From Azonexus sp. (GTDB taxonomy: Bacteria > Pseudomonadota > Gammaproteobacteria > Burkholderiales > Rhodocyclaceae), in assembly GCA_031260295.1 (NCBI GenBank), contig JAIRKE010000028.1:62001-126000 (forward strand): a stretch of 64,000 nucleotides of DNA, written 5' to 3'. Below the pieces are notes generated by a model. That model did no database searches. It was not told the DNA's origin and worked only from the letters and a program-made list of their open reading frames with translations. Shown piece by piece: positions 12,522 to 37,980 of the stretch. Each line of letters opens with the position of its first letter. Position 1 is the stretch's first letter. The position numbers were made by a program, and so were the translations under genes.

Positions 12522-12684
12522 AGTGTGCAGCCCCGCAAATAACCGCACATGAAACCGCGTCTTCGCGCCCCCGGCGGCGTTGCAAATGCTCGCGATACCG
12601 CCCGGTATCGCTGCGCTTTGCGCCTTGCCGTGAACGCGAATCCGGCGATTTCATTATGTGCGGCCATTTACGGGGCTGCACACT
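12522..12684. repeat. Palindromic MITE-like element A at the comM 3' end
   Basis: A 163-bp imperfect palindrome whose ends are AGTGTGCAGCCCCG (12522-12535) and CGGGGCTGCACACT (12671-12684). The similarity continues inward for about 20 more bases (AAAT..CCGCACAT..GAAA) with few mismatches. The centre is a second palindrome, GCTCGCGATACCGCC then CGGTATCGCTGCGC. No coding capacity for a transposase. The right arm supplies the last codons and stop of comM; the left end abuts the start of the efflux gene. I infer a small mobile or REP-like element. Confidence 0.6.
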
Positions 12685-14204: not shown

Positions 14205-14444
14205 TTACTCGCCGCGCGCCTTTTCCAGCGCCTCGACGCGGGCTTCGACTTCCTTCAGCCTGTCACGGGTACGGGCCAGAACCTGGGCCTGTACGTCGAA
14301 TTCCTCGCGGGTCACCAGATCGAGCTTGGCGAAAGCGCCGCTGACCAGGGCCTTGGTGTTCTTCTCGATGTCCTTGACCGGCGAATTGGCCAGCAGGGCG
14401 CTCATCTTGGCGCCGATTTCTTCCAGGAATTTGGGGTCGAGCAT
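14205..14444 (-). CDS. ubiK: Ubiquinone biosynthesis accessory factor (BMFP/YqiC family)
   Basis: The 79-residue product has an amphipathic N-terminal helix (MLDPKFLEEIGAKMSALL) and a C-terminal coiled coil (LARTRDRLKEVEARVEALEKA), the two-part layout of the BMFP/UbiK family. UbiK binds UbiJ and lipids and assists aerobic ubiquinone synthesis. The ATG at 14444 has a GAGG-type ribosome site (ggaggacacc). It is upstream of comM on the same strand with a 39-bp gap. It is the last gene before the CRISPR island. Confidence 0.85.
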   Translation of the reverse strand: MLDPKFLEEIGAKMSALLANSPVKDIEKNTKALVSGAFAKLDLVTREEFDVQAQVLARTRDRLKEVEARVEALEKARGE

Positions 14445-14528
14445 GGTGTCCTCCGTAATTATGACAGTGTAGCACAGCGCTGCTGACGCGCTTTTGGCTG
14501 ATGCACGACTGGCTGCCCGGGCAGGTGT

Positions 14529-14595
14529 TTACTTGATCAGTGGCAACAGGGCGCGGAATTCGTTGGAACCGGCCCGATGCAGCTATTCGAACAGC
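14529..14595 (-). pseudogene. Relic of isochorismatase-like gene 3' end (left island boundary)
   Basis: These 67 bases match the last 67 bases of the isochorismatase-like gene at 28698-28764 with 60 identities. On the minus strand they read LFE, then TAG, then LHRAGSNEFRALLPLIK and TAA; the intact gene reads LFEWLHRAGTDEFRALLPLIK. The Trp codon has become a stop and no upstream gene body exists. To the right the frame joins an unrelated hydrophobic stretch (ISRLLLPLLMLGFASLAA). The two copies bracket the whole CRISPR-Cas island. Bases 14596-14752 hold nothing else I recognise. Confidence 0.75.
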
Positions 14596-14752
14596 GCGTA
14601 GATTGCGGCGAGCGAAGCGAACCCCAACATGAGGAGCGGCAATAACAGGCGGGAAATGCCGGGTGGATTTCAACACGCCGCACTAATAACAAATGTTGCT
14701 TCTGAACCGGCGGGGCAGGCCTCATCCTACGCTTGCTGGCCTTGTTCAAAGC

Positions 14753-15483
14753 ATATTAATCCCTTTGAAATCAGGGCATGTTTGAAACTTAATATGGCTA
14801 TCCGATTTTCGTGATTGATTGTCTTAATCCCTTTGAAATCAGGGTGTGTTTGAAACTGACTTATCCAAGCATACTCATTCACCCATCTTCGTCTTAATCC
14901 CTTTGAAATCAGGGCGTGTTTGAAACTCAAAGGAGTTGGGAATCCATGTTGCGTGTTACGTCTTAATCCATTTGAAATCAGGGCGTGTTTGAAACCAGAA
15001 ACTGGTCGTAGTTTGATGGATTTAACCATGTCTTAATCCCTTTGAAATCAGGGCGTGTTTGAAACCTCGCCTCTTCTCGCCTATTCCTCCTGGCTGGCCG
15101 TCTTAATCCCTTTGAAATCAGGGCGTGTTTGAAACTTCGACCGGGGCGCCGGCATCGAGCACGGCGCGCGTCTTAATCCCTTTGAAATCAGGGCGTGTTT
15201 GAAACATTATCATGAGAGTAGAGAAGAGCATTGCATACGGGTCTTAATCCCTTTGAAATCAGGGCGTGTTTGAAACTGAAAAGGCACGTGCACAAGCTGA
15301 AGCCATCGGTCTTAATCCCTTTGAAATCAGGGCGTGTTTGAAACTTTCCAAGGAGAGTGTCATGAAGTACATCAAAAGTCTTAATCCCTTTGAAATCAGG
15401 GCGTGTTTGAAACGACAATATCCTAGCGACCTTGAAGAGTCTCAGGAGTCTTAATCCCTTTGAAATCAGGGCGTGTTTGAAAC
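14753..15483 (-). CRISPR. CRISPR array, 11 repeats of 36 bp and 10 spacers
   Basis: Repeats start at 14753, 14821, 14891, 14960, 15030, 15100, 15170, 15241, 15309, 15378 and 15448. Read on the minus strand, the repeat begins GTTTCAAACACGCCCTGATT and ends AAAGGGATTAAGAC. Spacers are 32-35 bp and all different. The repeats at 15030 onward are identical. Those at 14753 (four changes), 14821 and 14960 (one each) are degenerate, so the old end is on the left. The hairpin CCCTGATTTCAAAGGG is followed on the minus strand by exactly eight bases, ATTAAGAC, the size of a Cas6-made 5' tag. Both facts indicate leftward transcription with the leader at 15484-15590, matching the cas genes. Confidence 0.97.
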
Positions 15484-15590
15484 TCATCCCCCACAAAATT
15501 CCGTTTTACATCAATCGCTTGGATAAGGCGCTGGGGAGAAGTTCGGGGCATCGGGGACTTATGGGTTGCAGAGCGCGCTAGCCATAAAAT
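15484..15590 (-). promoter_or_regulatory. Putative CRISPR leader
   Basis: The 107 bp between the cas2 stop and the first (newest) repeat is the only space for an array promoter and adaptation leader. It holds no ORF. The orientation is inferred from repeat degeneration and the tag geometry of the array. The sequence beside the repeat (tcatcccccacaaaattccg on the plus strand) would be the leader-repeat junction. Confidence 0.6.
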
Positions 15591-15884
15591 TTACCACGGG
15601 GAGGGCAGGCCGGACCATAGGATTCCAGGCGGCAGCACCGGGCGCCCCAGGCGTACCTTGAGGCCACGGGCCGGCAAGGGATAGGCGCGCAGATCATCTT
15701 CTTTCGGCTCGATGAGGCGCGCGGCTTGTTCCAGGCAACGGTCGAGTTGTCGTTGGTCGCCGGTGAATAGAAACACGGAATGCTGCATCGGGATGGCGTG
15801 TTTTTTGAGGTAGCGAAACAGGCGGCCCAGCCGCCTGGGGTGGCTGATGTCATAGCAGATGATTGTGTCATTGATCGCCGTCAT
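15591..15884 (-). CDS. cas2: CRISPR-associated endoribonuclease Cas2 (first copy)
   Basis: The 97-residue product begins MTAINDTIICYDISHPRRLG, with the beta-1 aspartate of the YDI motif, then RLFRYLKKHAIPMQHSVFLF and KEDDLRAYPL, the standard Cas2 ferredoxin-like pattern. Cas2 forms the Cas1-Cas2 integrase that adds spacers. Its ATG lies inside the 3' end of cas1 (17-bp overlap), so the two are translationally coupled. It is the gene next to the CRISPR leader. A second, divergent cas2 lies on the other side of cas1. Confidence 0.9.
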   Translation of the reverse strand: MTAINDTIICYDISHPRRLGRLFRYLKKHAIPMQHSVFLFTGDQRQLDRCLEQAARLIEPKEDDLRAYPLPARGLKVRLGRPVLPPGILWSGLPSPW

Positions 15885-16854
15885 TATCCTGCTCCGGGCC
15901 GGTTTCGAGCGGCGGGGCGGGAATGGCGTGGCCGATCTGCTCGGCCAGGGCTTGTATCTCCACATGGATGCCGCCGCGCAGCGCCTCGCTCTTTTCTTCG
16001 TAGGCGCTGTAATAACGCGCCCGCCCGGCCTTGCCCAGCAGGCAGCCGGATGGCGTGGTGGAGAAATCGTCGGCGCTGATGATTCGTTTGTGCGCCATTT
16101 CGAAACAGAACTGATCGCACAAGGGGCGTAGGGGTTCGAGCAGGTCGGAGGCGAGCGATTCCCGGGCAAAGGCGAGTTGGTGATAGAAGCCAACGCAGGG
16201 GTCAAAGCCGGCGCCATGAAGGGCGATGACGAGTTCGGCATGGGCCAGGGTGTAGGTGAGGGAAAGAAGGGCGTTGAACGGGTCTTTGGGCGGACGGCGA
16301 TTGCGGTTTTTGAAACCGAGGCTGGGCGGGAGCACGGCGCGCAAGCCTTCAAAGTAGCGCGCGGCGGCGGCGCCTTCGAGGCCGCGCAGGCTGGTGAGGT
16401 TGTTGGCGCGGCTCAGCTTGTTGCGCGCTTCCGCCAAATGACGCATGGCAAGACTGAGTTCGTATCGCGCTTGCATGTCTTTTTCGCGCAGGGCGGCGAA
16501 CCATTCGATCTGGCGTTGGAGTTTGCGGTCGATGAGTTGCCGGGCGATGCCCAGGCAGTATTCCGGATCGAAGCTTTTGCGGATTTGCTCGACGCGACGC
16601 GAGGCGTCGTTGTGAGGACGCGCCAGCATGAGACTGGCTTTGCCTCGCCGCCCGGAGAGTATGACGACGCCCACATCGCGCTCGCCAAGACGGCCCAGCA
16701 GCGCGGCGGACAAGCGCACATCGCCGCGTAGAAAAACGCGGGTGAGCGGGGCGACGGGCACGGTGCCGACGCGTTGCTGGTTTTCACGAAAAACGATGGC
16801 ATCGGAGTCAAGTTCAAGCTCGATGCTGCGGCGGTCGACGAAGAGGCTGGTCAT
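15868..16854 (-). CDS. cas1: CRISPR-associated endonuclease Cas1
   Basis: Cas1 is the metal-dependent integrase subunit of spacer acquisition. The 328-residue product has the N-terminal beta domain (LFVDRRSIELELDSDAIVFRE), the central SLRGLEGAAAARYFEGL region with the conserved glutamate, then LHGAGFDPCVGFYH with the active-site histidine and SLASDLLEPLRP with the aspartate. All three ligands appear present, so the enzyme should be active. It is read from cas2 (second copy) into cas1 with a 9-bp gap and overlaps the other cas2. Confidence 0.95.
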   Translation of the reverse strand: MTSLFVDRRSIELELDSDAIVFRENQQRVGTVPVAPLTRVFLRGDVRLSAALLGRLGERDVGVVILSGRRGKASLMLARPHNDASRRVEQIRKSFDPEYCLGIARQLIDRKLQRQIEWFAALREKDMQARYELSLAMRHLAEARNKLSRANNLTSLRGLEGAAAARYFEGLRAVLPPSLGFKNRNRRPPKDPFNALLSLTYTLAHAELVIALHGAGFDPCVGFYHQLAFARESLASDLLEPLRPLCDQFCFEMAHKRIISADDFSTTPSGCLLGKAGRARYYSAYEEKSEALRGGIHVEIQALAEQIGHAIPAPPLETGPEQDNDGDQ

Positions 16855-16863
16855 GAGTCTTCC

Positions 16864-17148
16864 TCAGACAATAATGAAACGATCTTGGCCGAACGTGGCG
16901 GCACGGCCAAAACAGCGGGGTTTCATGCGCGGGTCGAGCGCCAGGATATGAATCCGGTCTTCGTCCGCTGTCAGGATGGCTTCGAGCTGGGCGCGAATGT
17001 GCCGCAGCTCCGCCGTGGTGGCCCAGATTTCAAATACGGATTTCTGCCCGCCGACCTTGAAGCCGGTGAGAAAACGATGGATTTTGCTCAAACGGCGCGG
17101 ATTGCGCACGTCGTAGGCGATGAGATAAAGGTCGCGGCGCGTGTCCAT
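16864..17148 (-). CDS. cas2: CRISPR-associated Cas2 (second, divergent copy)
   Basis: The 94-residue product starts MDTRRDLYLIAYDVRNPRRL (YDV aspartate present), then HRFLTGFKVGGQKSVFEIWA and DEDRIHILALDPR, a Cas2 pattern more like those of type III and I-D loci than its neighbour. I chose the ATG at 17148; an upstream in-frame ATG at 17163 adds only five residues. It leads the adaptation unit cas2-cas1-cas2. A perfect 18-bp palindrome lies 37-54 bp upstream of its start. Confidence 0.85.
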   Translation of the reverse strand: MDTRRDLYLIAYDVRNPRRLSKIHRFLTGFKVGGQKSVFEIWATTAELRHIRAQLEAILTADEDRIHILALDPRMKPRCFGRAATFGQDRFIIV

Positions 17149-17184
17149 GCCGCAACCATACAAAATCTCATGCCGCCAGGGAGG

Positions 17185-17202
17185 CGCGGCAAGCTTGCCG
17201 CG
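17185..17202. promoter_or_regulatory. Palindrome upstream of the adaptation genes
   Basis: CGCGGCAAGCTTGCCGCG is a perfect 18-bp palindrome. Its core, GGCAAGCTTGCC, recurs at 18481-18492, with variants at 18628-18639 and 28561-28573. Its centre is about 46 bp upstream of the cas2 ATG, and a TATGGT hexamer lies about 27 bp downstream of the core. I infer an operator or activator site. The rest of 17149-17332 holds no gene. Confidence 0.5.
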
Positions 17203-17332
17203 ATGGCGGGGGAGCCGTGGTTATATCGGATCGGCCATCGAGTATTGAACGTCCTGCCGCGTCATTCCCGCGCGCTGTGGCTGGGAATGGCGGAAATGGA
17301 GCCGGCTGCGGCAATTTTTGGTGGCCGGCTGA

Positions 17333-18442
17333 CTATTTCAGGGTGATGGCTGCCGCAGGTACGGTGAGACCGCGCTCGGTGTGGCCGCGCGTGCCTTGGC
17401 TGGTGATCAGATAGGGGGCGGCGGCGGGGCCAAGGGCGCGTTTCAGTTTGCTGTTGAGCTTGGAGTTGTTCTCTTCGAAAAATGTCTTTTCCATTCCGTC
17501 CTGGAGGCGTTTTTTCGCGTTTTCGTAATCCCCCGCGTCAATACCGATGACGCGCTGGTAAAGATGCAGGAATTCATCTGGCTCGATGTCGCGCCAGCGG
17601 CGAAACGCTTTGCCGTCGAGAGCGGTTTGCGCCCAGAAACCCAGCCAGGCGATGAGCGAGGGGGTGAGCTGGAGGCTGTGCTGGCCGCAGCTTGCGCGGC
17701 GGGCTTGCAGGTCGATTTCGAGAGAAGGCGGGGCAAAGCTTTCCTGTATGGCTTGTACGGTGTCGATGTAGCTTGATTCGCCCTTGGCGAATTTTTCCGG
17801 CAGGCCGTGGCGTAGCCGCACGATGGGAATTTCGGCGAGCATGACCTGGGCGCCCGCGGTATCGATATGAGTGCCTTCGCGGGTGGCAAGACGACGAGAT
17901 TTGGGCGGCGGGTAGAAAAATTCCGGATGGGTTTCAAAGGCGGGGGAAACCAATACATGCGAGAGGCGATCCTGCTCCCGGGCGTAGAGCGAGAAGGCGT
18001 AGCCGAGATAAAAGCCCATGGTTTTTCGCCCGCCGGCAATCGAGGCATGCAAGGCGGCATCGCCATCGCGCGTAAGTTCAGCCAGTTTCGTGGTGATGGC
18101 GTCGGCGGCGGCGGCGTTGTCCTCGGGCGTGCGGATGTCGGAGAGCGGTTTGCCGTCTGGCCCCGGAATGACATGAATGTGCGTCTTGTCGAAAGCGGGC
18201 CGCCCCAGTGCGGGGTAGTCCTTGAGCAGGGCATGAAACTGGCCGCCATCGGCATGCAGCAGCGAGACTTCGGCATGCCGGGCGCCTTCGGAGGTGGAGA
18301 GCAGGTGTATTTCCGTCGGCACGAATGCGCTCGCCTGCTCTTTGGGGAAGGCCAAGGCATAAAGCGTCTCGGTGACGATTTGCGGCGTCATACCCGTGAT
18401 GCACAACAGAATACGGCGGGGAAATTGATTTGGCGTTTTCAT
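17333..18442 (-). CDS. CRISPR-associated CARF protein, NE0113 family (candidate ring nuclease/sensor)
   Basis: The N-terminal ~200 residues match the Cas_NE0113 family: RILLCITGMTPQIVTETLYA, PTEIHLLSTSEGARHAEV, KTHIHVIPGPDGKPLSDIRT and SIAGGRKTMGFYLGYAFSLY. The family is a CARF-fold domain that binds cyclic oligoadenylates made by Cas10, and members are often annotated as ring nuclease/Csm6-like. I see no RxxxxH HEPN motif, so it is unlikely to be the RNase. The C-terminal ~150 residues (TPSLIAWLGFWAQ onward) look like a helical or winged-helix extension I cannot assign. The start at 18442 is 38 bp from a GGCAAGCTTGCC palindrome. It is set apart from the effector operon by the small-ORF pocket. 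Confidence 0.8.
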   Translation of the reverse strand: MKTPNQFPRRILLCITGMTPQIVTETLYALAFPKEQASAFVPTEIHLLSTSEGARHAEVSLLHADGGQFHALLKDYPALGRPAFDKTHIHVIPGPDGKPLSDIRTPEDNAAAADAITTKLAELTRDGDAALHASIAGGRKTMGFYLGYAFSLYAREQDRLSHVLVSPAFETHPEFFYPPPKSRRLATREGTHIDTAGAQVMLAEIPIVRLRHGLPEKFAKGESSYIDTVQAIQESFAPPSLEIDLQARRASCGQHSLQLTPSLIAWLGFWAQTALDGKAFRRWRDIEPDEFLHLYQRVIGIDAGDYENAKKRLQDGMEKTFFEENNSKLNSKLKRALGPAAAPYLITSQGTRGHTERGLTVPAAAITLK

Positions 18443-18480
18443 GTGAGCAGATTAACAAAGCGAAAGGTAGAGCAGGTAAT

Positions 18481-18492
18481 GGCAAGCTTGCC
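18481..18492. promoter_or_regulatory. GGCAAGCTTGCC palindrome between NE0113 gene and small ORF
   Basis: A perfect 12-bp palindrome, the same core as at 17185-17202. Its centre is about 45 bp from the NE0113 start on the minus strand, nearly the same spacing as at cas2, with a TAATCT hexamer about 26 bp downstream. On the plus strand it heads the duplicated leader of the small ORFs. I infer a shared operator. Confidence 0.5.
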
Positions 18493-18573
18493 AGAAACAA
18501 AATTATTTTGGAATGAGACTAGACTGGGTTCATCAGCGCACGTTGTGTCGCGTCAATAATTAGGAGATTCATT

Positions 18574-18681
18574 ATGCCAACAAAGCCTAGGAGGGAGGAA
18601 GCTATGACAAGCTTGCTGTACTATTTTGGCAAGCTTGGCAAGGAACAAATAATTTTGAATGAAGCTAGACTGGTTTCGTAA
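18574..18681 (+). CDS. Small ORF 1 of the CRISPR pocket (35 residues, unrecognised)
   Basis: The ATG at 18574 follows TAGGAGATTC, a strong ribosome site. The frame encodes MPTKPRREEAMTSLLYYF and on to LNEARLVS, 35 residues: charged N-terminus and short hydrophobic middle. It runs through the second copy of the duplicated leader and stops where that copy's AGCACACGTTGTGCT palindrome begins. It may be a real small protein, a leader peptide, or what remains of the first copy of a duplicated gene. No function can be assigned. It is read opposite to the cas genes. Confidence 0.35.
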   Translation: MPTKPRREEAMTSLLYYFGKLGKEQIILNEARLVS

Positions 18682-18719
18682 GCACACGTTGTGCTGTTTC
18701 AGTCGCTAGGAGATATATC

Positions 18720-18887
18720 ATGCCTTTCCCTCTCGCTTTTCTTGCTTTTGCTCTTCCAACTCTCGGCGAACTCGCCGGCATCACCGCAACGGTTGTTGTT
18801 TCCACTGTCGTTGCAAAAGCGACTTCCGATACTTACGATGCATTTTCCGATGCAGTTACAGAAAGATCGGAGGATGATGACGACTGA
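18720..18887 (+). CDS. Small ORF 2 of the CRISPR pocket (55 residues, membrane-like, acidic tail)
   Basis: The ATG at 18720 follows CTAGGAGATATATC, a strong ribosome site with good spacing. The product starts MPFPLAFLAFALPTLGELAG, continues with a hydrophobic stretch (ITATVVVSTVVA) and ends in a run of acidic residues (SEDDDD). This predicts one or two membrane segments or a signal-like N-terminus with a cytoplasmic acidic tail. I do not recognise it. Its position inside a type III CRISPR locus, on the opposite strand and behind a palindrome-containing duplicated leader, would fit an accessory, toxin-like or guard peptide, but that is speculation. Confidence 0.5.
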   Translation: MPFPLAFLAFALPTLGELAGITATVVVSTVVAKATSDTYDAFSDAVTERSEDDDD

Positions 18888-19002
18888 GCAGCGCAAGACC
18901 GGCAGTGATGGGAGCAGGACTTTTTTTTGTGCCAATGTGAAAATAATTTGCCGGTTATTCTAAAATTTATTGCTGAATCTTACAAAGCGGAAGGAATATC
19001 GT

Positions 19003-19176
19003 ATGAACCTGCTCAATTTTATCGCGAAAAAAACTGGCGAAGCGCTCGCTCGTGGGGTAATCCTGAATGGAGATCCCAAAAAGAACGGCGGCCACGATCA
19101 TCGCTACAACCGCGGCGATGACCGCACTCCGGCACAGGCAGAAGGGGACAGGAAAAGGAGGAACCCAAAGACCTGA
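19003..19176 (+). CDS. Small ORF 3 of the CRISPR pocket (57 residues, basic)
   Basis: The ATG at 19003 follows GGAAGGAATATCGT, a good ribosome site, and is preferred over the in-frame ATG at 18970, which has none. The product starts MNLLNFIAKKTGEALARGVI, an amphipathic helix, then turns hydrophilic and strongly basic (KKNGGHDHRY, DRKRRNPKT). I do not recognise it. It is convergent with the csx1-like gene, with a strong hairpin between the two stops. Confidence 0.45.
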   Translation: MNLLNFIAKKTGEALARGVILNGDPKKNGGHDHRYNRGDDRTPAQAEGDRKRRNPKT

Positions 19177-19222
19177 TTCGATCTGGCTTGGCGATGGAAC
19201 ATCCTGAAATTCCTCAATCCCC

Positions 19223-19250
19223 CGTCATTCCCGCCTTCGCGGGAATGACG
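19223..19250. terminator. Hairpin between convergent transcripts (dispersed CGTCATTCCCGC repeat)
   Basis: CGTCATTCCCGC and GCGGGAATGACG form a perfect 12-bp stem with a CTTC loop, followed by TGATTTTCAATTTTT. It lies between the stop of small ORF 3 and the stop of the csx1-like gene, so it can end both transcripts. The same palindrome is a widespread dispersed intergenic repeat in proteobacteria. A decayed copy (CGTCATTCCCGCGCGC) is at about 17260. Confidence 0.65.
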
Positions 19251-19316
19251 TGATTTTCAATTTTTAACGAGAATTGGCGAGCATGAACATGGGAGCGTCA
19301 AGGCGATAGGTAGTTT

Positions 19317-20778
<1,462 letters not shown>

Positions 20779-20802
20779 GGCAAGGGGATCGGTTGGCGTG
20801 GT

Positions 20803-21747
20803 TTATGGCATGGCATGGAGCAACCGGTAGCCGCCCAGACCAAAGCTGGCTTCCTTGCCCACATGCAGCCATTGCCCGAGATGCAGAAAGGGTACAAAGG
20901 GAGCGAGGTCGCCCGAGAGTTTCCAGGCGCCGATGACGCCGCCCAGGTCCATTTTGCGATCCTGGCGACTGGAGTAGCGCGTCCAGTCGCGCCAGTGCAG
21001 CTTCTTTTCGCTGCGAATAACTTCGGCTTGCGCGGCCAGGCCGGAAAAATCCAGCGCCAGTGGTCCCGCGCCATGAAATTCGTTCATCAAGGCCACGCGC
21101 CGCACCAAGGTGGTGAGTAGCCGGCGCGGCGTGTATTCCTCAGCGGTGGCGCGGCGGCCATTGGCTTGCAGGCGGAGCGGTGTGTCAAATTGCAGGGTAA
21201 GGCTTTCGGCCGCGCAATCCGGCGGTGGCGCGATGGTGGTGTCGTGGTCGTCAATGTGGCCGCCGGGGCCATCAAGCACCACGGTTTCTTGTTCGCCCAG
21301 ATGAACGACGCGCAGCAATTGCGCCGTGCCATCGCCGCGCCCTACTCCCCGCTGGAAGGCCCGGGCAAAAGCCCAAAAAACCAGCGCGGCCTGATCCAGC
21401 GCCCGTCCGGCCAGCACCAGATGAAAAGACAGCATTTCACCGGGCGCGTAATCGCGTTCGCCCCATTGCGGCGGCTCGATGATGTAGGGATGCGGCACTT
21501 GCGTGAATTTTTGCAGCGCGTGCTCGCCCGTGAGCCGGCTCTCAAAGATGGTGGCGTAGGGACAGGTCGCCAGAAGCGGGCAGGCATCGCAGCTTTTTTG
21601 CCGCGTCATGCAGGCCGCCGAGCGCAGGGCATGACCAAAGGCGCCGCGCAAGGCGGAGCCGGAGTAGGCGGGCAGGCGCAGCGCGGTTTCGACTGTGAAT
21701 TCGAGGCGATAGCGCGCCAGGGGGAGGGCGGTCGCCATGCGGCTCAT
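20803..21747 (-). CDS. cas6: CRISPR pre-crRNA endoribonuclease Cas6
   Basis: Cas6 cuts the array transcript at the base of each repeat hairpin. The 314-residue product begins LARYRLEFTVETALRLPAYS, has GSALRGAFGHALR, a cysteine cluster (CDACPLLATCPY) and ends with the glycine-rich loop (WLHVGKEASFGLGGYRLL) of RAMP proteins. This is the pfam10040-type Cas6 of type III loci. Its ATG at 21747 overlaps the csm5 stop (ATGA). An upstream in-frame ATG at 21828 lies inside csm5 and is rejected. Confidence 0.87.
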   Translation of the reverse strand: MSRMATALPLARYRLEFTVETALRLPAYSGSALRGAFGHALRSAACMTRQKSCDACPLLATCPYATIFESRLTGEHALQKFTQVPHPYIIEPPQWGERDYAPGEMLSFHLVLAGRALDQAALVFWAFARAFQRGVGRGDGTAQLLRVVHLGEQETVVLDGPGGHIDDHDTTIAPPPDCAAESLTLQFDTPLRLQANGRRATAEEYTPRRLLTTLVRRVALMNEFHGAGPLALDFSGLAAQAEVIRSEKKLHWRDWTRYSSRQDRKMDLGGVIGAWKLSGDLAPFVPFLHLGQWLHVGKEASFGLGGYRLLHAMP

Positions 21748-23456
21748 GCCGCGCCTCGCAGTTTGGCGAACTGGAGTTTCTTGCGCTGTTCCTTGGCGTC
21801 CCAGGGAGCGATGGCTTGCGGCAGGCATTTTTCCAGCATGTCGGCCAAGCTTGCCTTGTCGTTGGCGTTCCAGCCCGAATTTTCTTGCAGCGCCGTTTTG
21901 ACCAGACGATTGGCATCCTGGTACAGGCCGGATTTATTGGCGTCGGCGGGCTGCGTCTTGTAGTTGCCATGCGGCGGGAGCTTGCCCGCCCAGTCTTCGC
22001 AAGCCTGGCGCAGTTCTTCAATTTGCCGGGCCTGTTCCGTCATTTTGGCCAAGGCTTGGGCGCGTTGTTCGGCGGCGATGCGCTCAGCCTCGACGGCTTC
22101 GGCGCGAGTGGCGGCCTCGGCTTGCATCCGGGCTTTTTGCGCTGCGGCCTCCTGGCGCAGGGTTTGTAATTGGGCGCGCTGCTCGGCCATGTCGAGGCGG
22201 CCGTGACTCTGTTCGCGGCACCATTGCTGCAAGGCGGCGCAATCACCTTGCGGGTCGATTTCCACCACGGCCCAGCCAAAGGGGATGAGGTGCTTTTGAT
22301 CGTCTTCTACCTGGGCGGCCAGCCAGACGGTCTTGGTCGTGCTCGCGAAAGTGGGCGAACTGCCCCTAGCGCCCATGATTTTGATGCTGGCCACGCCTTC
22401 GCCGGTAAGGGTTTTGCTGTCGGCGCCGCCGTAGCGCCCCAGACGGACGAGGAAAGCGCTGCCGGCTTCCAGTTGCTGATCCAGCTCGTTGATGAGCGCT
22501 TCGATGCCGCGCTTCCAGTCCGGGCATACCAGGCCACGGCCATCCAGTACGGCCAGTTCCTGACTCAGGCGTTGCCGATGATAGGTGTTGGATTGTTGGG
22601 CCAGGCGTTTCAGATCGACGCTGCCTTGATTCGTCAGTTGTTCAGCGTGTGGCGTCAGCGCCTGGCCTTTGCCATCGACGGCGCCCGTTTGCCGCAACAG
22701 GGCGGGCAGGGTGACATCGGCGGCAAACAGGCGGTACTGACCGGGCAGGATGCAGTCTTTGCGCGCTGCGATGCCCTTGGGCTGCGCCTCTCTGCCGTCT
22801 TTCATTACTCGCTGCTTTTTGCGGTTGACGGCGAACAGCACTTCGCGCTCAGGCTCGCGCGTGGGCATGAGGTCGGCCACTTTGAGCAGGCGCAGCGGGC
22901 TGGTTTGGAAATCGCCTTGCAGCAGGCGCTTTTCCATGGCGGCGCTGGACTTGGCTTCGCCATTCCTTTTGAATTCCACGTCGTGGGGCTTGCGTTTGTC
23001 GTTGAGATCATCCAGCCAGGCGGTGCGCAGCGCGCCCTTGAAGCTGCTGCCGGGGATGAAAGGCTGTTGCAGCGCCCCGGTGTAAACGTGGCGCTCGATT
23101 TCGAGCTTGTTGAACACTTGATTGCCGTCAGCTTCCACATTGGCGGCCTTGCCGATGCGCTTTTCGTACTCGCGCGCCACGCCGGCGCAGACCGGCATGA
23201 CGACATAGGCATGGGTCTTGAAAGCTCCGGCGTGGTCGCGGAAAAAAGCTTGTATGCCGGGCAGGGAGCCGCGCCGCGCCACCGCCATCAGCTTGTCGCG
23301 CTGGGCATCGTTCAAGGCGGCGCGGCTGGGGTCGAAGCCATAGAGCCAGCCGTCTTCAATCACGTAATTGGTGGGTTCGAAGTCCTCGCCGCAGCCGATA
23401 TGGATGGGCGATAGCGGCGTCAAGCGTAGCCGGTGGGTGGTCAAGAATTGGCTCAT
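21744..23456 (-). CDS. csm5: Type III-A RAMP protein Csm5 with long coiled-coil C-terminal extension
   Basis: Csm5 caps the 3' end of the crRNA backbone in the Csm complex. The N-terminal domain has LRLTPLSPIHIGCGEDFEP, YVIEDGWLYGFDP and FIPGSSFKGALRTAWL, all typical. At 570 residues it is longer than usual Csm5 (about 350-400). From about 423 to 490 there is an alanine- and glutamate-rich coiled coil, then an ~80-residue tail (DANRLVKTALQENSGWNAN onward) that I do not recognise. Start and stop overlap csm4 and cas6 by four bases each (ATGA). Confidence 0.9.
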   Translation of the reverse strand: MSQFLTTHRLRLTPLSPIHIGCGEDFEPTNYVIEDGWLYGFDPSRAALNDAQRDKLMAVARRGSLPGIQAFFRDHAGAFKTHAYVVMPVCAGVAREYEKRIGKAANVEADGNQVFNKLEIERHVYTGALQQPFIPGSSFKGALRTAWLDDLNDKRKPHDVEFKRNGEAKSSAAMEKRLLQGDFQTSPLRLLKVADLMPTREPEREVLFAVNRKKQRVMKDGREAQPKGIAARKDCILPGQYRLFAADVTLPALLRQTGAVDGKGQALTPHAEQLTNQGSVDLKRLAQQSNTYHRQRLSQELAVLDGRGLVCPDWKRGIEALINELDQQLEAGSAFLVRLGRYGGADSKTLTGEGVASIKIMGARGSSPTFASTTKTVWLAAQVEDDQKHLIPFGWAVVEIDPQGDCAALQQWCREQSHGRLDMAEQRAQLQTLRQEAAAQKARMQAEAATRAEAVEAERIAAEQRAQALAKMTEQARQIEELRQACEDWAGKLPPHGNYKTQPADANKSGLYQDANRLVKTALQENSGWNANDKASLADMLEKCLPQAIAPWDAKEQRKKLQFAKLRGAA

Positions 23457-24418
23457 TCGCTGACTCCCGTCAGACTGGATGCTTGGTTTTCAGGAATGTG
23501 AATGGGTACGACAGGGCAGTAGCCTTGCTGCACGGTTTCCGGCATGGATAAGGAAACCGGCGCGGAGATGCCGCCCAAGCCCTGGCCGATGTGGGTGCAG
23601 GCGGCATCGGCACGCTCGGGCCAGAACACGCTGCCGGCCTTGGCCAGCAGCACGGGGCGCTTGAAGGGCTGGCCCGATTGCACGGCGAGGTCGCCGTGGC
23701 GACCAAAGCGGGTCACGGTGTTCCAGTAGCTGCGCTGAGGGCAAAAACCTAAGCCTTGCGGGGCGCAAGGGCCAAGGGTCAGGTAGGCGTTGGCGGCATC
23801 GCTGATTCGCAGGTCGGGCCAGGCTTGCAGGTCGTCGCTGGCTAACTCGAATTTGCCCAGGCCTATGCTGGCATCACGGCCAAAGCCTTGCTGTCCCATA
23901 TGGGCGAGGGCGGTGAAGATGTCGGCGGCGGAGATGCGTTCGGTATCCAGCACTAGCCATAGATCCAGTTCGCTGCCGGGCACGGGCCAGATTTGCGTCA
24001 TGGTGTACGGCGCAAACATGCCGGTGCCGGTGGTGCCGGTTTGGCGGTTGATGGTGTTGTGCGGCTGAGGGTGTTCCTTGCCTGTTTTCAGTTCGACGGC
24101 GAATTGCTGCCATTTCGATAAGGGTTCTGGCAGTGCGACCAAGGGGAGCCAGCGTTTTTTCTTCAACGCCTTGCGGTCGTCGCCATTGGCTTGCCATGTG
24201 TCGGAAGGCAGGCTGGGTAGCGGGATGTGGCCGTAAGGCAGGGCGTCGGAAACGATGGCAAAAGGCCGCCCCTCGGCGTAATCCTGCAACAAGGCGGTGA
24301 GTCGTTCGTTGCCGAGTTGGTGGCGCAAGGTCCAGCACAGTTGGCCGAATAGCGTGTCGCCGGCCAGTGGGGTGCCGAATGCGGTCAAGGGCCGCAAGGT
24401 GATGCGAAAGGTTTGCAT
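23453..24418 (-). CDS. csm4: Type III-A RAMP protein Csm4
   Basis: Csm4 (Cas5 group) holds the crRNA 5' tag next to Cas10. The 321-residue product starts MQTFRITLRPLTAFGTPLAG with DTLFGQLCWTLRHQLG, the standard Csm4 N-terminus, and has the glycine-rich GQQGFGRDASIGLGKFEL loop. The ATG at 24418 is 14 bp after the csm3 stop. A longer open frame upstream lies inside csm3 and is out of family. It overlaps csm5 by four bases. Confidence 0.9.
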   Translation of the reverse strand: MQTFRITLRPLTAFGTPLAGDTLFGQLCWTLRHQLGNERLTALLQDYAEGRPFAIVSDALPYGHIPLPSLPSDTWQANGDDRKALKKKRWLPLVALPEPLSKWQQFAVELKTGKEHPQPHNTINRQTGTTGTGMFAPYTMTQIWPVPGSELDLWLVLDTERISAADIFTALAHMGQQGFGRDASIGLGKFELASDDLQAWPDLRISDAANAYLTLGPCAPQGLGFCPQRSYWNTVTRFGRHGDLAVQSGQPFKRPVLLAKAGSVFWPERADAACTHIGQGLGGISAPVSLSMPETVQQGYCPVVPIHIPENQASSLTGVSE

Positions 24419-24432
24419 GACGAGCCTCGGTG

Positions 24433-25164
24433 TTACGACTGCGCTCTGTTGAAAGGCTGGATGGCGTCGAAGCGGGCCTGGGCGTTTTGCTGGTCGATGT
24501 TCAGATCGGCAAAGCGCACCTTGCCGTAGCCACGCGAGCCGGAGCCGCCGATGCTGTCCAGTTCCAACAACCTCAGGCCCTGCAAGACGGTAGTCAGTAA
24601 TTCGTCGCCATCGCCCGCGAGGCGCTTGACGGACAGGCGGAAGTCGAAGCGGGCGCCTGCGGGCACGCGCTCGGTCTGGCGCGGGTGCTCGGCCACGCCG
24701 GAGATGCGGTTGATGCGGTTTTCGCTTTTGACTTCGGTCAGCATCTGGTTGTTGTCGCGCACCTGCTTCTGCCAATCGGCTTGCAGCTTGCAGTCCCAGA
24801 ACGAGAGGCGGCTGGGGCCGAGGTCTTGCATCTGCTCCATGCCCAGCCTGGTATCGCCGCTGATGCCGAACAGTTGCAAGATGCGGCGCATCTCGGCCTT
24901 GACGGCTTCATTGGCGTCCTGATAGTCCTTCCAGCCCAGAGGCTCCATCCGAACGGCACCGCTGCGCCATTCGAGCAGGCTGCGCATCTTGCCCTTGAGA
25001 CTGGAGCCGGGGATGTAGGGTTCTTGCGTGTGCGGATGGCGGATAACGGCGTTGTCTACGCCGCCAATGCGCATTTCGCTGTCGCCCGCGCCGATGCGCA
25101 GACCGCTGATCAGTTCCAGCGTGGCGGTGATGGTTGTGATGGCGGTGAGTTGCGGTTGAGTCAT
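24433..25164 (-). CDS. csm3: Type III-A RAMP protein Csm3 (backbone RNase)
   Basis: Csm3 (Cas7) forms the backbone and cuts target RNA every six bases. The 243-residue product has LISGLRIGAGDSEMRIGGVD with Asp 37 at the position of the catalytic aspartate, IPGSSLKGKMRSLLEW, and the C-terminal SIGGSGSRGYGKV loop. All key parts are present, so target RNA cleavage is expected. It starts two bases after the csm2 stop. Confidence 0.94.
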   Translation of the reverse strand: MTQPQLTAITTITATLELISGLRIGAGDSEMRIGGVDNAVIRHPHTQEPYIPGSSLKGKMRSLLEWRSGAVRMEPLGWKDYQDANEAVKAEMRRILQLFGISGDTRLGMEQMQDLGPSRLSFWDCKLQADWQKQVRDNNQMLTEVKSENRINRISGVAEHPRQTERVPAGARFDFRLSVKRLAGDGDELLTTVLQGLRLLELDSIGGSGSRGYGKVRFADLNIDQQNAQARFDAIQPFNRAQS

Positions 25165-25166
25165 GG

Positions 25167-25643
25167 TTATTTCTCCTGGGCTTTGTAGAAGCCCATGAAG
25201 GCTTCCATGAACAATTTGGCGTGGCGCAGGCTTTCTGCGTCGCTGATCTGGCGGATCAGGTGGGCGAACAGGGTTTCAAAGGATTCGTCCACATGCTTAC
25301 GGCCTTTGGCATAGGCCACCTTGGCGATCAGCATCTGGATGAAGGGCGCGACTTCCTGGTATTTGGTTTTGCGGTCTTCCGGGGTGCGCTCGAAGTGGAC
25401 TTTTTCAAACCACATGACCAGTTCGTCGTAGAAACGGCGCAACTGGGTGGAGTTGTTGGTGTTCTGGCTTTTACCCTGGGCAATCACTTGGGCTTTGTTT
25501 TCCGCAATTTCGGAAAACAGCGCTGTCTGGATGTCCTTGAGCTGCACGTCGCTGGTGTCAATGTTTGGGCGCGGCGCTTCCCGGTGCTGCGGGTTGCCCC
25601 GGCCTTGGTTGTTTCTGTTGAAGTCGGCTGTGTTGGTTGTCAT
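25167..25643 (-). CDS. csm2: Type III-A small subunit Csm2
   Basis: The 158-residue product has a disordered N-terminus and an all-helical body (FYDELVMWFEKVHFE, FIQMLIAKVAYAKGRKHVDE, FMEAFMGFYKAQ), the pattern of Csm2, which lines the guide-target duplex. It lies between cas10 and csm3 in the standard III-A order. Csm2 is specific to subtype III-A, so with csm5 it fixes the subtype. Confidence 0.88.
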   Translation of the reverse strand: MTTNTADFNRNNQGRGNPQHREAPRPNIDTSDVQLKDIQTALFSEIAENKAQVIAQGKSQNTNNSTQLRRFYDELVMWFEKVHFERTPEDRKTKYQEVAPFIQMLIAKVAYAKGRKHVDESFETLFAHLIRQISDAESLRHAKLFMEAFMGFYKAQEK

Positions 25644-25654
25644 TGTGCGTCTCC

Positions 25655-28384
25655 TTAACGTTGACGGTAGAAATAATTGAAAAGCGGTATGCGAAAGTAC
25701 GTACCCAGCCCGTGTTCAGGATTAATGCCTTGCTTGCCCAGCACTTCGGCCAGGCGGGTTTGAACCTGCGCGCGGTGCTGGGGGGCTTTGTCCTTGAGTT
25801 TGTCCACCACGTAGCGGCGCGTGCGGTAGGCAAAGCGGCTGCGCCACATGGCGTGTTCGGGGTTTTGTTTGTCGGTAGCCAGGTCAATCAGATGCAGCAG
25901 GCCATACACATAACCGGTGGAAAGCTGATAGGCCGCACACAGTTCATCCAACTGCTGCTGCATGGATTCGAGCTTGTGCCATTCGGGCCAGCGCACGCGC
26001 TCATCGAACAACACGACGGCGTTTTTGCGTTGCTTCTGGTCGGGGTGATTGCTGGCTTTGGCGGCTTCCAAAGCATCTTCCGCCTGCGCGACCAGGGTGT
26101 GCATGGGCAGGCCCGGTTTGGTCATGCACATGCCAGCGGAGAAGGTGATGCCGGGGTTGTGCGCCACATAGGTCTTGAATTCCTCGGCCATGCGGGCGGC
26201 CAGCTTTTGTGTGCCGAGCCAGGGGCCGATGAGGAAGAAGTCGTCGCCGCCGGCAAACACTGTGTAGGTATTGGGAAATTCCGCAGCGCACAGGGCTGGC
26301 AGATAAACGGCAAAAAAGGCATTCATCTGCCGTGACAGCGCGGCCATCTTGGCAAAGGTGGGTGCCTGCAAGCCTTGCCGAAAGATGTCGCCCAGGTTGT
26401 CCACATCGCCCTTGAGCGTCATCAGCGCCACCTGGCCTTGCCAGTTGGCAGCGTTGCTGGTGTCGGCGGTTTTGGGTTGCCGGTCTTCACAGGCGATGTG
26501 ATTGAGGGTTTTGCCCGCGCCGAATTGCACATCTTCGGGGCGGATGTCTTCTTCCTGCCCTTTGTATTTGGCCTGGGTTTGTATGTCTTCTTCGCTAAAG
26601 TGCGGCACATAGGCATTGATGTAGCGCCTAGCGTAGCCGTGCCAGAGCGTGTCGTTCAGGTCTTTTGCCAGGCTGAAATCCCAGCAGCGCGCCAGGGCGC
26701 CGCTCTGCGCGAGCTTGCCGAATTTGCCGCTGCTGTCTTGGTCGGAGGTGAAGGCGATGGTGTAGCCAAAGATGGGGACTTCGAGCGGCTGCACGTTGGA
26801 ACCGCTGGTCAAGTCATCGGCTTGGCGCAGCACCAGCAAGCGATCCTGACGCGACAAGCCTTTGCCGATGGCGATCTGGTCGCGTGACAAGGCCGAAGAT
26901 GCCTTGTTACTGCCTTCATCCCGGTCAGCGGGCAGTCGGTTGTTGTACATGCACACGCCATGCGGGTAATCGACGGCAAACACGGTGGGCGCAGCGGCGG
27001 TCAGATCAAAGCGATGCAGCTTGGCTTTTTCCAGGTCGGCGAACAAGCCGTTCATCAGCGCCTTGAAGCGGTGTGTCGGCGCTTTGTCCAGAAAGTCGTT
27101 GCAACTGGCGCTTTTGCCCGCCAGCCCCAGCCCGGCAAGGCCAAAGCTGTGTAGCAGGAACCATTGGTTCAACTCGGCGCGCACGCTATCGAGCCGCGCC
27201 TTGGTATCGGTGGTATTGGGGGCAACGATGAGGAATTTGCCTGCTGCATTGGTGATCTGGCTGGTGGGAGGCAGTTCCAATGCATCGAGCACCTTGAGGG
27301 CCGCCAGTTCTGTGAACAGGGAGACTTGAAAGGAGCGCCCGCGCAGCAGGCGGGCGGCATCTTTGCGGGTTTGGCTTCCGTCGGCAAAGATGAAATCCTG
27401 AATGCCGAAAAAGTCCCCCTGAATGAGCAGAAACTTATGTTCGTCCCAGTCGGCATGCTCTTTCAGGCACTTGACGGCATGGGCATCGGTCTGGCCGTTG
27501 GCTTCATGCCAGCACCACAAGGCAACGGCCAGGGCGGCAGTGGTCTTGCTGTGGTCGTACAGCGAAACCTCGGGCTTGGCGCCAAAGGCCGTCGCCGAGG
27601 GAATGGCATGGGTAAAGCTCAACCATGCGGTGTCGAGATGATCCAGCCATAGCGGCCAGTTGCTGCGGTGAGAAGCAGGGATGTCTTCAAGCGCTTGCCG
27701 AAATTTTTGCCATAGCGCTGCGTATTCCTTTTGCGCGGGTGCGTCCTGGGATGGCTCACACGCTTCGCGCTTCTTTGGAAAAATCGACTCGGCCGAGAGG
27801 GGTTGCAGCGGGTAACGCCATTGCAGCGTCTGGGGGCTGTGGCCTGCCGAGGCACCCGCGATCTGCTCCAGCAGCGAAAGCATGCGAGCCTGGTAGTGAT
27901 TACGGCCTGTGGGGGTGTCGGTGTTTTCGTCTTTGGCGGCGTTATAGGTATCGAATTCTTCCCGCTCAAGGCCGCTGGCCACGCGATCCGCAGTGGCGAT
28001 GATCCATTGCAGAAAGGTTTCGGGCCGGTGGTGCGCGGCTGCGGCGTTGAGGAGTGAGTCGGCGTCCGTGCCCAGGCTACCCGCGCCGGCGCTGGCTTGT
28101 AGTTGCGCGCGGTTGACGAATGGGGCCATGTCGCCTTCGATAAGGCGGGGGACGTGTTGCTCGATGCAGTCGAACGCCAGGGCGGTGTAAGCCGCATGCA
28201 GGTGACTGTGGTAGCCGTTTTTGCCGCTATCGTCGGTGCGCCAGGGACAGTACTGAGTTTTGTGGGCAGCCAGAATTTCGGATGGCGCCTCGATGCGGGC
28301 GCGCTCGGCGAATTTGCCAAGATCGTGCAGATATGCGGCCAATGCTACACGGCAGGAGGCGTTAAGTTGTGGTGGCGTTGTCAT
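25655..28384 (-). CDS. cas10: Type III-A Cas10/Csm1 (HD nuclease and cyclic oligoadenylate synthetase)
   Basis: The 909-residue large subunit begins with an HD domain (YLHDLGKF, His 20-Asp 21) for single-stranded DNA cutting. Later come GDFFGIQDFIF at the first palm domain, LMTLKGDVDNLG, and AGGDDFFLIG at the second palm domain with GGDD at 712-715. GGDD is intact, so cyclic oligoadenylate synthesis is expected. I chose the ATG at 28384, six bases after AAGGAA; an earlier in-frame ATG at 28402 would swallow that site. It heads the operon cas10-csm2-3-4-5-cas6-csx16-csx1. Confidence 0.95.
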   Translation of the reverse strand: MTTPPQLNASCRVALAAYLHDLGKFAERARIEAPSEILAAHKTQYCPWRTDDSGKNGYHSHLHAAYTALAFDCIEQHVPRLIEGDMAPFVNRAQLQASAGAGSLGTDADSLLNAAAAHHRPETFLQWIIATADRVASGLEREEFDTYNAAKDENTDTPTGRNHYQARMLSLLEQIAGASAGHSPQTLQWRYPLQPLSAESIFPKKREACEPSQDAPAQKEYAALWQKFRQALEDIPASHRSNWPLWLDHLDTAWLSFTHAIPSATAFGAKPEVSLYDHSKTTAALAVALWCWHEANGQTDAHAVKCLKEHADWDEHKFLLIQGDFFGIQDFIFADGSQTRKDAARLLRGRSFQVSLFTELAALKVLDALELPPTSQITNAAGKFLIVAPNTTDTKARLDSVRAELNQWFLLHSFGLAGLGLAGKSASCNDFLDKAPTHRFKALMNGLFADLEKAKLHRFDLTAAAPTVFAVDYPHGVCMYNNRLPADRDEGSNKASSALSRDQIAIGKGLSRQDRLLVLRQADDLTSGSNVQPLEVPIFGYTIAFTSDQDSSGKFGKLAQSGALARCWDFSLAKDLNDTLWHGYARRYINAYVPHFSEEDIQTQAKYKGQEEDIRPEDVQFGAGKTLNHIACEDRQPKTADTSNAANWQGQVALMTLKGDVDNLGDIFRQGLQAPTFAKMAALSRQMNAFFAVYLPALCAAEFPNTYTVFAGGDDFFLIGPWLGTQKLAARMAEEFKTYVAHNPGITFSAGMCMTKPGLPMHTLVAQAEDALEAAKASNHPDQKQRKNAVVLFDERVRWPEWHKLESMQQQLDELCAAYQLSTGYVYGLLHLIDLATDKQNPEHAMWRSRFAYRTRRYVVDKLKDKAPQHRAQVQTRLAEVLGKQGINPEHGLGTYFRIPLFNYFYRQR

Positions 28385-28697
28385 TGTCCATTCCTTTTGC
28401 ATGCACTTTGAGTGTTCGTTTGAACCCTGGGCAGGTTCTTGTGTGAGTTCCCGCCATAGGCTGCCAAGCCAAACAGATCAGCTTTCCGTTCCTGCTGGTC
28501 AGTGTTTGCATCAAGGCGCCTGCGGATGGACTATAGCCGGACTCGCAGCTACGAACGGCAATGACAAGCTTGCGCAGCGATGGGATGCGACGTGTGGCCT
28601 GCATTTCCTGGACTTCGATAATTCGTCCCTTGGCTATTCCCTTGAAGCTGAGGCAGCCCTCAAGAGCATTCGCTCAGAAATGCTGCTCGACCAGCAC
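28385..28697 (-). promoter_or_regulatory. cas10 upstream region (313 bp, no gene)
   Basis: No ORF here has family resemblance or a ribosome site. The stretch must hold the promoter of the Cas10-Csm operon. At 28561-28573 it carries ATGACAAGCTTGC, a one-sided variant of the GGCAAGCTTGCC palindrome found at the other CRISPR promoters, though ~180 bp from the cas10 start. It ends at the isochorismatase stop, the right boundary of the island. Confidence 0.4.
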
Positions 28698-29240
28698 TTA
28701 CTTGATCAGGGGCAGCAGGGCGCGGAATTCGTCGGTGCCGGCCCGGTGCAGCCATTCGAACAGCACCATCTCGGTGGTCACTACCTGCGCGCCGAGGGTG
28801 CGCAGGCGCTCGACAGCGGCGGCGCGGCTGGCCGGCGTGCGCGACGACGAGGCGTCGGCGACGAGGAAGACCTGGAAGCCGGCCTCCAAGAGGCCGCAGG
28901 CCGTTTGCAGCACGCAGATGTGGGTTTCGGTGCCGGTCAGGATGATCTGGCGGCGGTTGGCGGCGCGCAGCAGATCAAGCGCGCCCGGTTCGGCGGCGCA
29001 GGAGAAATGCATTTTCTCGAAGAAGCAGGCATGTCCGGCTGCTTCGCGGATGGCGGCGAGGCTGGGGCCGAGGCCGCGCACGTACTGCTCGGAGACGAAG
29101 GCCGGCACGGCCAGTTGGGCCGAGGCGCGGAGCAGGCGCGCCGAGTTGGCGGCTACCGTGTCGGCGTCGTGGATTGCCGGGGCCAGTTTTTCCTGGATGT
29201 CGACGATCAGCAGCAGGGAGTTTTCGCGGGCGATCAGCAT
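28698..29240 (-). CDS. Isochorismatase-like cysteine hydrolase
   Basis: The 180-residue product has LLLIVDIQEKLAP (catalytic aspartate at ~14), the FEKMHFSC lysine region and TGTETHICVLQTACG with the nucleophilic cysteine. It is a YcaC/hydrolase-type member of the isochorismatase superfamily; the substrate is unknown. I chose the ATG at 29240 (MLIARENSLL); upstream in-frame codons are not family-like. Its last 67 bases are duplicated, in decayed form, 14 kb to the left at the other edge of the CRISPR island. Confidence 0.88.
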   Translation of the reverse strand: MLIARENSLLLIVDIQEKLAPAIHDADTVAANSARLLRASAQLAVPAFVSEQYVRGLGPSLAAIREAAGHACFFEKMHFSCAAEPGALDLLRAANRRQIILTGTETHICVLQTACGLLEAGFQVFLVADASSSRTPASRAAAVERLRTLGAQVVTTEMVLFEWLHRAGTDEFRALLPLIK

Positions 29241-29336
29241 GGGTTTAGGGCATTTTCTTGGCTTCAATGGCAAGCATTCTTGCATCGCTGGCCCCATCCC
29301 GGCCTTTCCCCGTCAACGGGGGAAGGAGCCTGATTC

Positions 29337-30200
<864 letters not shown>

Positions 30201-37911: not shown

Positions 37912-37930
37912 ATTCTGCCTCGACGTGGAC

Positions 37931-37972
37931 TTCGGGAGGACGGATAATACGGAGTTTTTGCCGTCTCCCGAA
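37931..37972. repeat. Inverted repeat in the mutY-flavin reductase divergent spacer
   Basis: TTCGGGAGGACGG (37931-37943) and CCGTCTCCCGAA (37961-37972) pair over 12 bases with one bulge, around a 17-base loop. It occupies most of the 69-bp spacer and ends 8 bp before the flavin reductase ATG, which lacks a clear ribosome site. It could be an operator or a leader hairpin. Confidence 0.5.
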
Positions 37973-37980
37973 TACCCGCC

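Follow-up and report, generated by a model that had tools for sequence, protein, structure and literature searches.

The window analysed here, a stretch of 64,000 nucleotides from an Azonexus genome, carries a type III-A CRISPR-Cas locus bracketed by copies of one gene end: the terminal 67 bp of an isochorismatase-like gene stand intact at the right of the locus and recur, decayed and in the same orientation, at its left. We think it fairly likely that the locus entered the genome at this gene's 3' end through a target-duplicating recombination event, most simply a single crossover, which doubled 67 bp or more of the local sequence. Twice, in the window and in an island of another genus (genome G211), an insert has come to lie at the end or border of a gene, with local sequence duplicated and one copy decayed; the genes are unrelated and the duplication lengths very different. 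For both we infer general recombination as the mechanism, its simplest form being a single crossover of circular DNA that carried a piece of the target gene. Our literature search found no work on CRISPR-Cas together with Azonexus.

A duplicated gene end and the locus it brackets

The isochorismatase-like gene (28698-29297, minus strand; Pfam Isochorismatase, 1.2 × 10−32) is open over 199 codons. A repeat search of the window found that its 3' end up to the stop codon (28698-28764, minus strand) recurs in direct orientation at 14529-14595 (minus strand), 14169 bp away from start to start, with 60 of 67 positions identical when the two are set side by side. One boundary of the repeat coincides exactly with the isochorismatase stop codon (plus-strand TTA) and the other falls inside the gene, and beyond the 67 bp the sequence is dissimilar between the copies on both sides. 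The left copy lacks a gene body and has a TGG codon changed to TAG (Trp to stop); the other six differences comprise four synonymous and two amino-acid changes. As a control for chance, we compared random pairs of 1.5-kb segments lying 12-16 kb apart; none of 592 pairs gave a direct match at E ≤ 1 × 10−10, compared with 2.3 × 10−21 for the real pair. A search of the whole genome (2.94 Mb in 74 contigs; E ≤ 0.001) returned two matches only to the 67-bp stretch, the diverged left copy at E = 1.1 × 10−19, so that this genome has no third copy, nor a second complete gene to which the left copy could belong. The direct repeat is thus confirmed as real, and every property that an earlier note on this DNA had ascribed to it (length, 60 identities, orientation, Trp-to-stop change and missing gene body) was found again. 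Flanking direct repeats therefore mark the ends of the island (60/67), and no inverted repeat of at least 20 bp was found between these two ends.

The locus between the copies is a type III-A CRISPR-Cas system: PADLOC identified Cas10/Csm1, Csm2-Csm5 and Cas6, and the repeat search an array of 11 repeats of 36 bp (14753-15483, putatively on the minus strand). As the repeats at the left end of the array are degenerate, its leader is probably at the right end. All genes of the locus lie on the minus strand. Next to the array come a second cas2-like gene (15591-15860; Pfam CRISPR_Cas2, 5.8 × 10−13), cas1 (15868-16854; Pfam Cas_Cas1 and PADLOC Cas1), cas2 (16864-17163; Pfam CRISPR_Cas2) and a gene for a CARF protein of the Cas_NE0113 family (17333-18442; Pfam and PADLOC-search profile matches). 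Profile search with PADLOC assigned the remainder: a csx1-type CARF-HEPN protein (19317-20483), csx16 (20488-20778), cas6 (20803-21828), csm5 (21744-23456), csm4 (23453-24421, with its start placed by the profile match), csm3 (24433-25164), csm2 (25167-25643) and cas10/csm1 of type III-A (25655-28402; Cas10a, 1.3 × 10−143). All twelve assigned genes are thus cas or accessory genes, and neither Pfam nor PADLOC recognised an integrase or transposase among them, in agreement with the earlier note. The cas genes have a G+C content of 59.5%, lower than in the neighbours (68.1% and 63.1%), as would fit an acquired locus.

Two details of the gene order may be recorded here. The cas2-like genes on either side of cas1 (15591-17163) differ from each other, both matching Pfam CRISPR_Cas2, and in genomes G211 and G270 cas2 matches likewise lie on both sides of cas1. 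The 0.9-kb gap between the CARF gene and csx1 (18443-19316) holds short open reading frames only, of which the 90-residue one (18691-18963) was scanned against Pfam and had no match; the gap also contains two 31-bp direct repeats (18480-18510 and 18627-18657) that are 77% alike and have a TGGCAAGCTTG core.

The 14 kb between the copies had been described as exactly the CRISPR-Cas locus, which holds for the type III-A locus itself and not for its edges. To the left of the array, 157 bp (14596-14752) consist largely of dispersed repeats, and to the right of cas10, 295 bp (28403-28697) have no assigned origin: they gave no match in 75 other genomes or in plasmid records, and three peptides translated from them had no Pfam match. 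The left flank comprises two kinds of short dispersed repeats of the clade, found elsewhere in the same genome and in the relatives G031 and G032 (for example at G000:C1, G031:C64 and G032:C157). One of its motifs, with at most one mismatch, occurs at 14 places in the window's own genome, 7 in G031 and 14 in G032. At the left junction the gene end and a dispersed repeat overlap by 3 bp (AGC). We considered the dispersed repeats as a cause of the insertion and dropped the idea, since a motif at 14 places of the genome is ordinary repeat DNA; a 13-bp resemblance between the gene end and the flank of one dispersed-repeat copy was judged to be chance.

The junction in relatives and the setting of each copy

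On its left the island is followed by a gene matching Pfam BMFP (14205-14444), which we, like the earlier note, take to be ubiK, and by a comM-like gene (12654-14165; Pfam Mg_chelatase and ChlI domains), presumably comM on the strength of synteny in relatives. On its right, beyond the isochorismatase gene, lies a purU-like gene (29337-30200; Pfam Formyl_trans_N, with ACT under the cut-off), by synteny presumably purU. All three are on the minus strand. Across a genus sample of 76 genomes, the window's own included, the isochorismatase gene had a match in 71, some of these being distant family members, and the ubiK protein in 73. We compared the neighbourhoods of 36 relatives: both genes lay on one stretch in 29, on different contigs in 4, and in 3 the isochorismatase gene was outside the stretch.

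In the 29 relatives the two genes are 74-5131 bp apart with a single gene end each, and wherever the stretch is long enough purU lies beyond isochorismatase and comM beyond ubiK. An amtB-like gene, presumably amtB, stands between them in 26 of the 29 and a phosphoesterase gene in 11, the latter directed towards isochorismatase where its orientation was read. The prediction that CRISPR-free relatives would join ubiK to the isochorismatase gene through one copy therefore held as to the single copy and, as to the direct joining, in G031 (74 bp, no gene between), while 26 of 29 have at least the amtB-like gene in the gap. That of G067 (870 bp) contains the phosphoesterase gene only. In G032, one of the two nearest relatives, the gap measures 2681 bp, and the 2.7 kb of other sequence in it (L066, 1866-4543) has no match to the DNA of the window.

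With a second gene end defined as 46 or more identities of 67 within the stretches compared, none was found in 61 genus loci (many of which are one genome from two collections) or in 52 more distant loci, and thus no CRISPR-free relative carried both copies. For one of these loci (L071) the gene end was misplaced, ending in CGT, so that its row tests the stretch beside the end. A 37-bp match in G057 (L074) lies inside an open reading frame with GGDEF-like sequence, judged by eye, and was dropped as a second copy. No larger insert occupies this place in the 29 relatives, in which 5131 bp is the maximum, and other islands at the same gene end, for which the earlier note had suggested a search, were not seen there. 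A Cas10 of the window's kind was present in only 2 of the 76 genus genomes, the window's own and G038, where it lies elsewhere; the CRISPR-Cas locus is therefore probably an acquisition.

Which copy has kept which surroundings can be read from a short remnant. A 28-bp piece at 14497-14524 (plus strand) matches a calcineurin-like phosphoesterase gene, in its 3' part, at 26 of 28 positions (compared with L092; Pfam Metallophos for the gene in L067). The matching stretch in L092 lies 69-96 bp from the isochorismatase stop, and in most of the relatives displayed with the phosphoesterase gene its stop is about 10 bases or less from that of isochorismatase. In the window four bases separate the remnant from the left copy; order and orientation are conserved, and the ubiK leader follows. 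Against the 26/28 of the real piece, 1049 control pieces reached at most 22/28 with locus L085 left out. In a first control over ten loci, 60 shuffles reached at most 20 and one of 60 random window pieces also gave 26/28; L085 was removed because a dispersed repeat in its flank caused that hit. This dispersed repeat, found in the window at about 36850, also stands between phosphoesterase and isochorismatase in G068 (L085), by the isochorismatase stop, with 26/28, so that other small repeats insert at the same spot.

The ancestral downstream setting (remnant and ubiK) has thus stayed with the left copy, and the ancestral upstream setting (gene body and purU) with the right copy. The insert separates the two settings and the duplicated 67 bp are common to both. 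The claim that the island entered at the isochorismatase 3' end, leaving two direct copies, one of them since decayed, is borne out by the single copies of relatives and by this split of settings.

The two copies also differ in how they compare with relatives. The right copy matches G032 at 63 of 67 positions, as high as elsewhere in the gene. We considered a foreign origin for it and rejected this, as there is no breakpoint in the gene, whose final 67 bp are as close to G032 as the rest; to judge from the sequence, the right copy appears to be of its own lineage, with no sign of a gene end from afar. The left copy departs at two sites, one of them the stop, at which all 20 relatives compared agree, and is therefore taken to be decaying. 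At two further sites it has a rare base common to G031 alone (1/20), which we take as chance or shared mutation bias. From right to left copy, six changes are G/C to A/T, none the reverse and one neither; as a proof of decay this bias was rejected, not being distinctive (77 to 30, with 81 neither, from the right copy to 20 relatives). The 7 differences in 67 can be set beside fourfold-site differences to G032 of 17/101, 19/132, 4/37 and 54/285 in four genes: on these sites, which are too few, the duplication would be of the same order of age as the divergence from G032.

A second bracketed island in another genus

Among 395 genomes of the family, the Cas10 most similar to that of the window (80%) belongs to G211, in another genus. 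The G211 island is bracketed by a direct duplication as well, of about 1.1-1.2 kb, covering moxR and the start of a DUF58-like gene, and one copy has decayed. The array side has a 63-bp fragment from the start of the DUF58-like gene and an intact moxR-like gene (AAA_3), the duplicated stretch here being about 1.2 kb including a 121-bp extra piece. The cas10 side has the DUF58-like gene itself (326 codons; Pfam 1.2 × 10−4, just below the curated cut-off) and a moxR remnant in pieces, identical at its 3' end (68/68), 77% alike in the middle and 85% over 150 at the 5' end. The DUF58 start is 92% alike between the two copies. A comparison within G211's genus (21 genomes searched, 15 loci returned) showed moxR and the DUF58-like gene adjoining without interruption in all 13 of the other loci compared: their aligned parts are separated by 3 to 124 bp, and neither gene has a second copy over the stretch of up to 3.9 kb. 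In G211 and its sister G348 this junction is replaced by the array side of the island. HicB- and HicA-like small genes, recognised by eye, lie between the array and the gene fragment of G211 (L129, joined coordinates 37688-38407).

Both islands therefore share the layout of an insertion with duplication: the insert lies between direct copies of its target, with the upstream context on one side and the downstream context on the other. Since the duplication in G211 is at other genes and of another length, duplication length and target gene vary, and outside the cas genes and the array we found no sequence common to the ends of the two islands.

To see how general this scar is, we turned to the 31 places in 29 of the 395 genomes found by the family-wide Cas10 search, and surveyed 18 loci, namely those of 17 of these genomes (the window's included) and that of G038. 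A survey for brackets needs at least 3.5 kb on both sides, which 10 of the 18 loci have, and the cluster edges used are approximate, most of all in G123. Brackets were found in 2 of the 10 islands, the window and G211, which are the closest pair by Cas10, and in none of the other eight with both flanks (G278, G038, G123, G228, G183, G270, G468 and G471); the scar is therefore not general. A perfect 24-bp repeat in G270 lies in unrelated contexts and was not counted as a bracket, nor was a 76-bp match of 80% in G468, whose left half is inside the cluster. The brackets of the window and G211 may be a trait of their sub-clade, a sign of recency, or chance.

Routes of insertion and what the scar means

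Direct duplications of differing length at different genes point to general recombination as the route. We propose that CRISPR-Cas genes joined to a short piece of the isochorismatase gene would have formed a circularised DNA, and that a single crossover of the Campbell type at the 3' end of the resident gene would have placed the insert between direct copies; an alternative route could be an unequal exchange of sister chromosomes as DNA is taken up. The recombination event would duplicate the target to a variable extent, the isochorismatase reading frame would be kept, the useless left copy would decay, and a dedicated attachment site would be unnecessary. The window's Cas10 had no match in 50,697 phage records, and the stretch 14445-29234 had no near match in 72,556 plasmid records, which still leaves room for a circular donor.

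Precedents exist for a scar of this kind. In Marinomonas mediterranea MMB-1 a type III-B operon lies between direct repeats some 200 bp long, which its authors liken to integration scars, and strain CPR1 has no remnant of the operon (PMC5576922). MMB-1 resembles the window in that a complete type III operon stands within direct repeats; it differs in being III-B with RT-Cas1 and in repeat length, and the available part of the text does not describe the repeats as a gene end (PMC5576922). In E. coli, integration of recircularised DNA by one crossover gave partial target-gene duplications of 109-950 bp in 14 sequenced clones (PMC3240628). There too, the insert is bracketed by a partial target-gene duplication of variable length, although that study concerns a laboratory construct with lacZ, whereas in the window the donor is hypothetical and one copy has decayed (PMC3240628). 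For unequal exchange, a study of Streptococcus pneumoniae describes transformation combined with unequal sister-chromatid exchange; DNA uptake with unequal exchange there yields direct duplications of host DNA. These lie between repeats and span about 100-900 kb, which dwarfs the 67 bp of the window (PMC3784515).

Several points count against insertion by a single crossover. Crossover, staggered break, unequal exchange and a lost integrase would leave the same marks. The homology stops exactly at the stop codon, where a random end would rarely fall and which an att-type site would explain better; this argument is weakened by a deletion beside the left copy, which removed potentially telling sequence. 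The 67 bp resemble the recipient's own gene so closely that a circle bringing them would have to come from within the clade, and no such donor was seen. Eight of the ten islands with both flanks, moreover, show no bracket.

Site-specific integration, in which an integrase, later lost, used the isochorismatase 3' end as its attachment site and the element restored the gene end, is the alternative that survives best, and we consider it unlikely. It would account for a repeat at a gene 3' end that stops exactly at the stop codon, and for a gene that stays open with the displaced end at the far side of the insert. Published Vibrio III-A islands do lie at tRNA-Leu or at a metabolic gene and have an integrase, as far as the available excerpt describes them (PMC6360697). 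The window island likewise has a type III-A system at a gene, yet the two islands of that excerpt measure 26 and 46 kb and have an integrase, whereas the window's measures about 14 kb and none was recognised among its assigned genes (PMC6360697). Against such integration also stand the absence of a larger insert or second gene end at this place in the 29 relatives, the sister island of G211 at another gene with a duplication of more than 1 kb, and the lack of a common sequence at the ends of the two islands outside the cas genes and array. Usual att cores are far shorter than the G211 duplication. The earlier note had proposed the gene end as an attachment-like site, which our results do not support: no integrase was recognised, the site does not recur as a target in the 29 relatives, and G211 has its island at another gene with a more than tenfold longer duplication. 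The case also shows that a lone decayed gene end next to an island argues only weakly for an attachment site. Nor does the window's island resemble a transposon insertion, as there is no transposase among its assigned genes, no inverted repeat of at least 20 bp between its ends, and no fixed duplication length (67 bp, versus more than 1 kb in G211).

A staggered break, in which offset nicks were filled in and joined to incoming DNA so that the stretch between them was duplicated, seems to us distinctly unlikely. Both 67-bp copies look like the genome's own lineage, the duplications vary in length, and the AGC overlap lies at the left junction, all of which would suit it; offsets of more than 1 kb, as G211 would require, are hard to produce by staggered breakage. 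That the gene end was doubled first and the CRISPR-Cas locus placed between the copies later we regard as improbable. The anatomy is compatible with it and the site is unstable in the clade, where the gap measures 74 bp in G031, 870 bp in G067 and 2681 bp in G032, but two copies without an island occur in no relative examined (61 and 52 loci), and the same coincidence would be needed again in G211. An artefact of assembly or binning in this metagenome-derived genome is very improbable: in its favour are the 74 contigs of a fragmented genome and the dispersed repeats found at the left junction, yet the copies differ at 7 of 67 sites and hence share no long exact word, a single contig (C27) spans both junctions, and the G211 sister island has the same kind of anatomy, with its array-side junction in two genomes.

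Insertion by general recombination, with duplication of the target, thus remains the reading we prefer for the window. A wider idea, speculative and rather doubtful, is that the type III-A loci of this sub-clade spread without a recombinase of their own: DNA that is circularised, or recircularised, would take along a piece of a neighbouring host gene and re-enter by a single crossover, and decaying direct duplications of unrelated host genes would be its footprint. At the array end, the loci's own Cas1 and its two different Cas2 proteins might assist.

To our knowledge, phylogeny has been the main ground for inferring how whole integrase-less CRISPR-Cas loci move between bacteria. The two related loci described above, from different genera, each bear a legible scar, and the uninterrupted site is shown in relatives of each; the matching scar in the genus of G211 adds interest to the case of the window. 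Other genomes can be searched for the same signature, a bracketing duplication of local host DNA.
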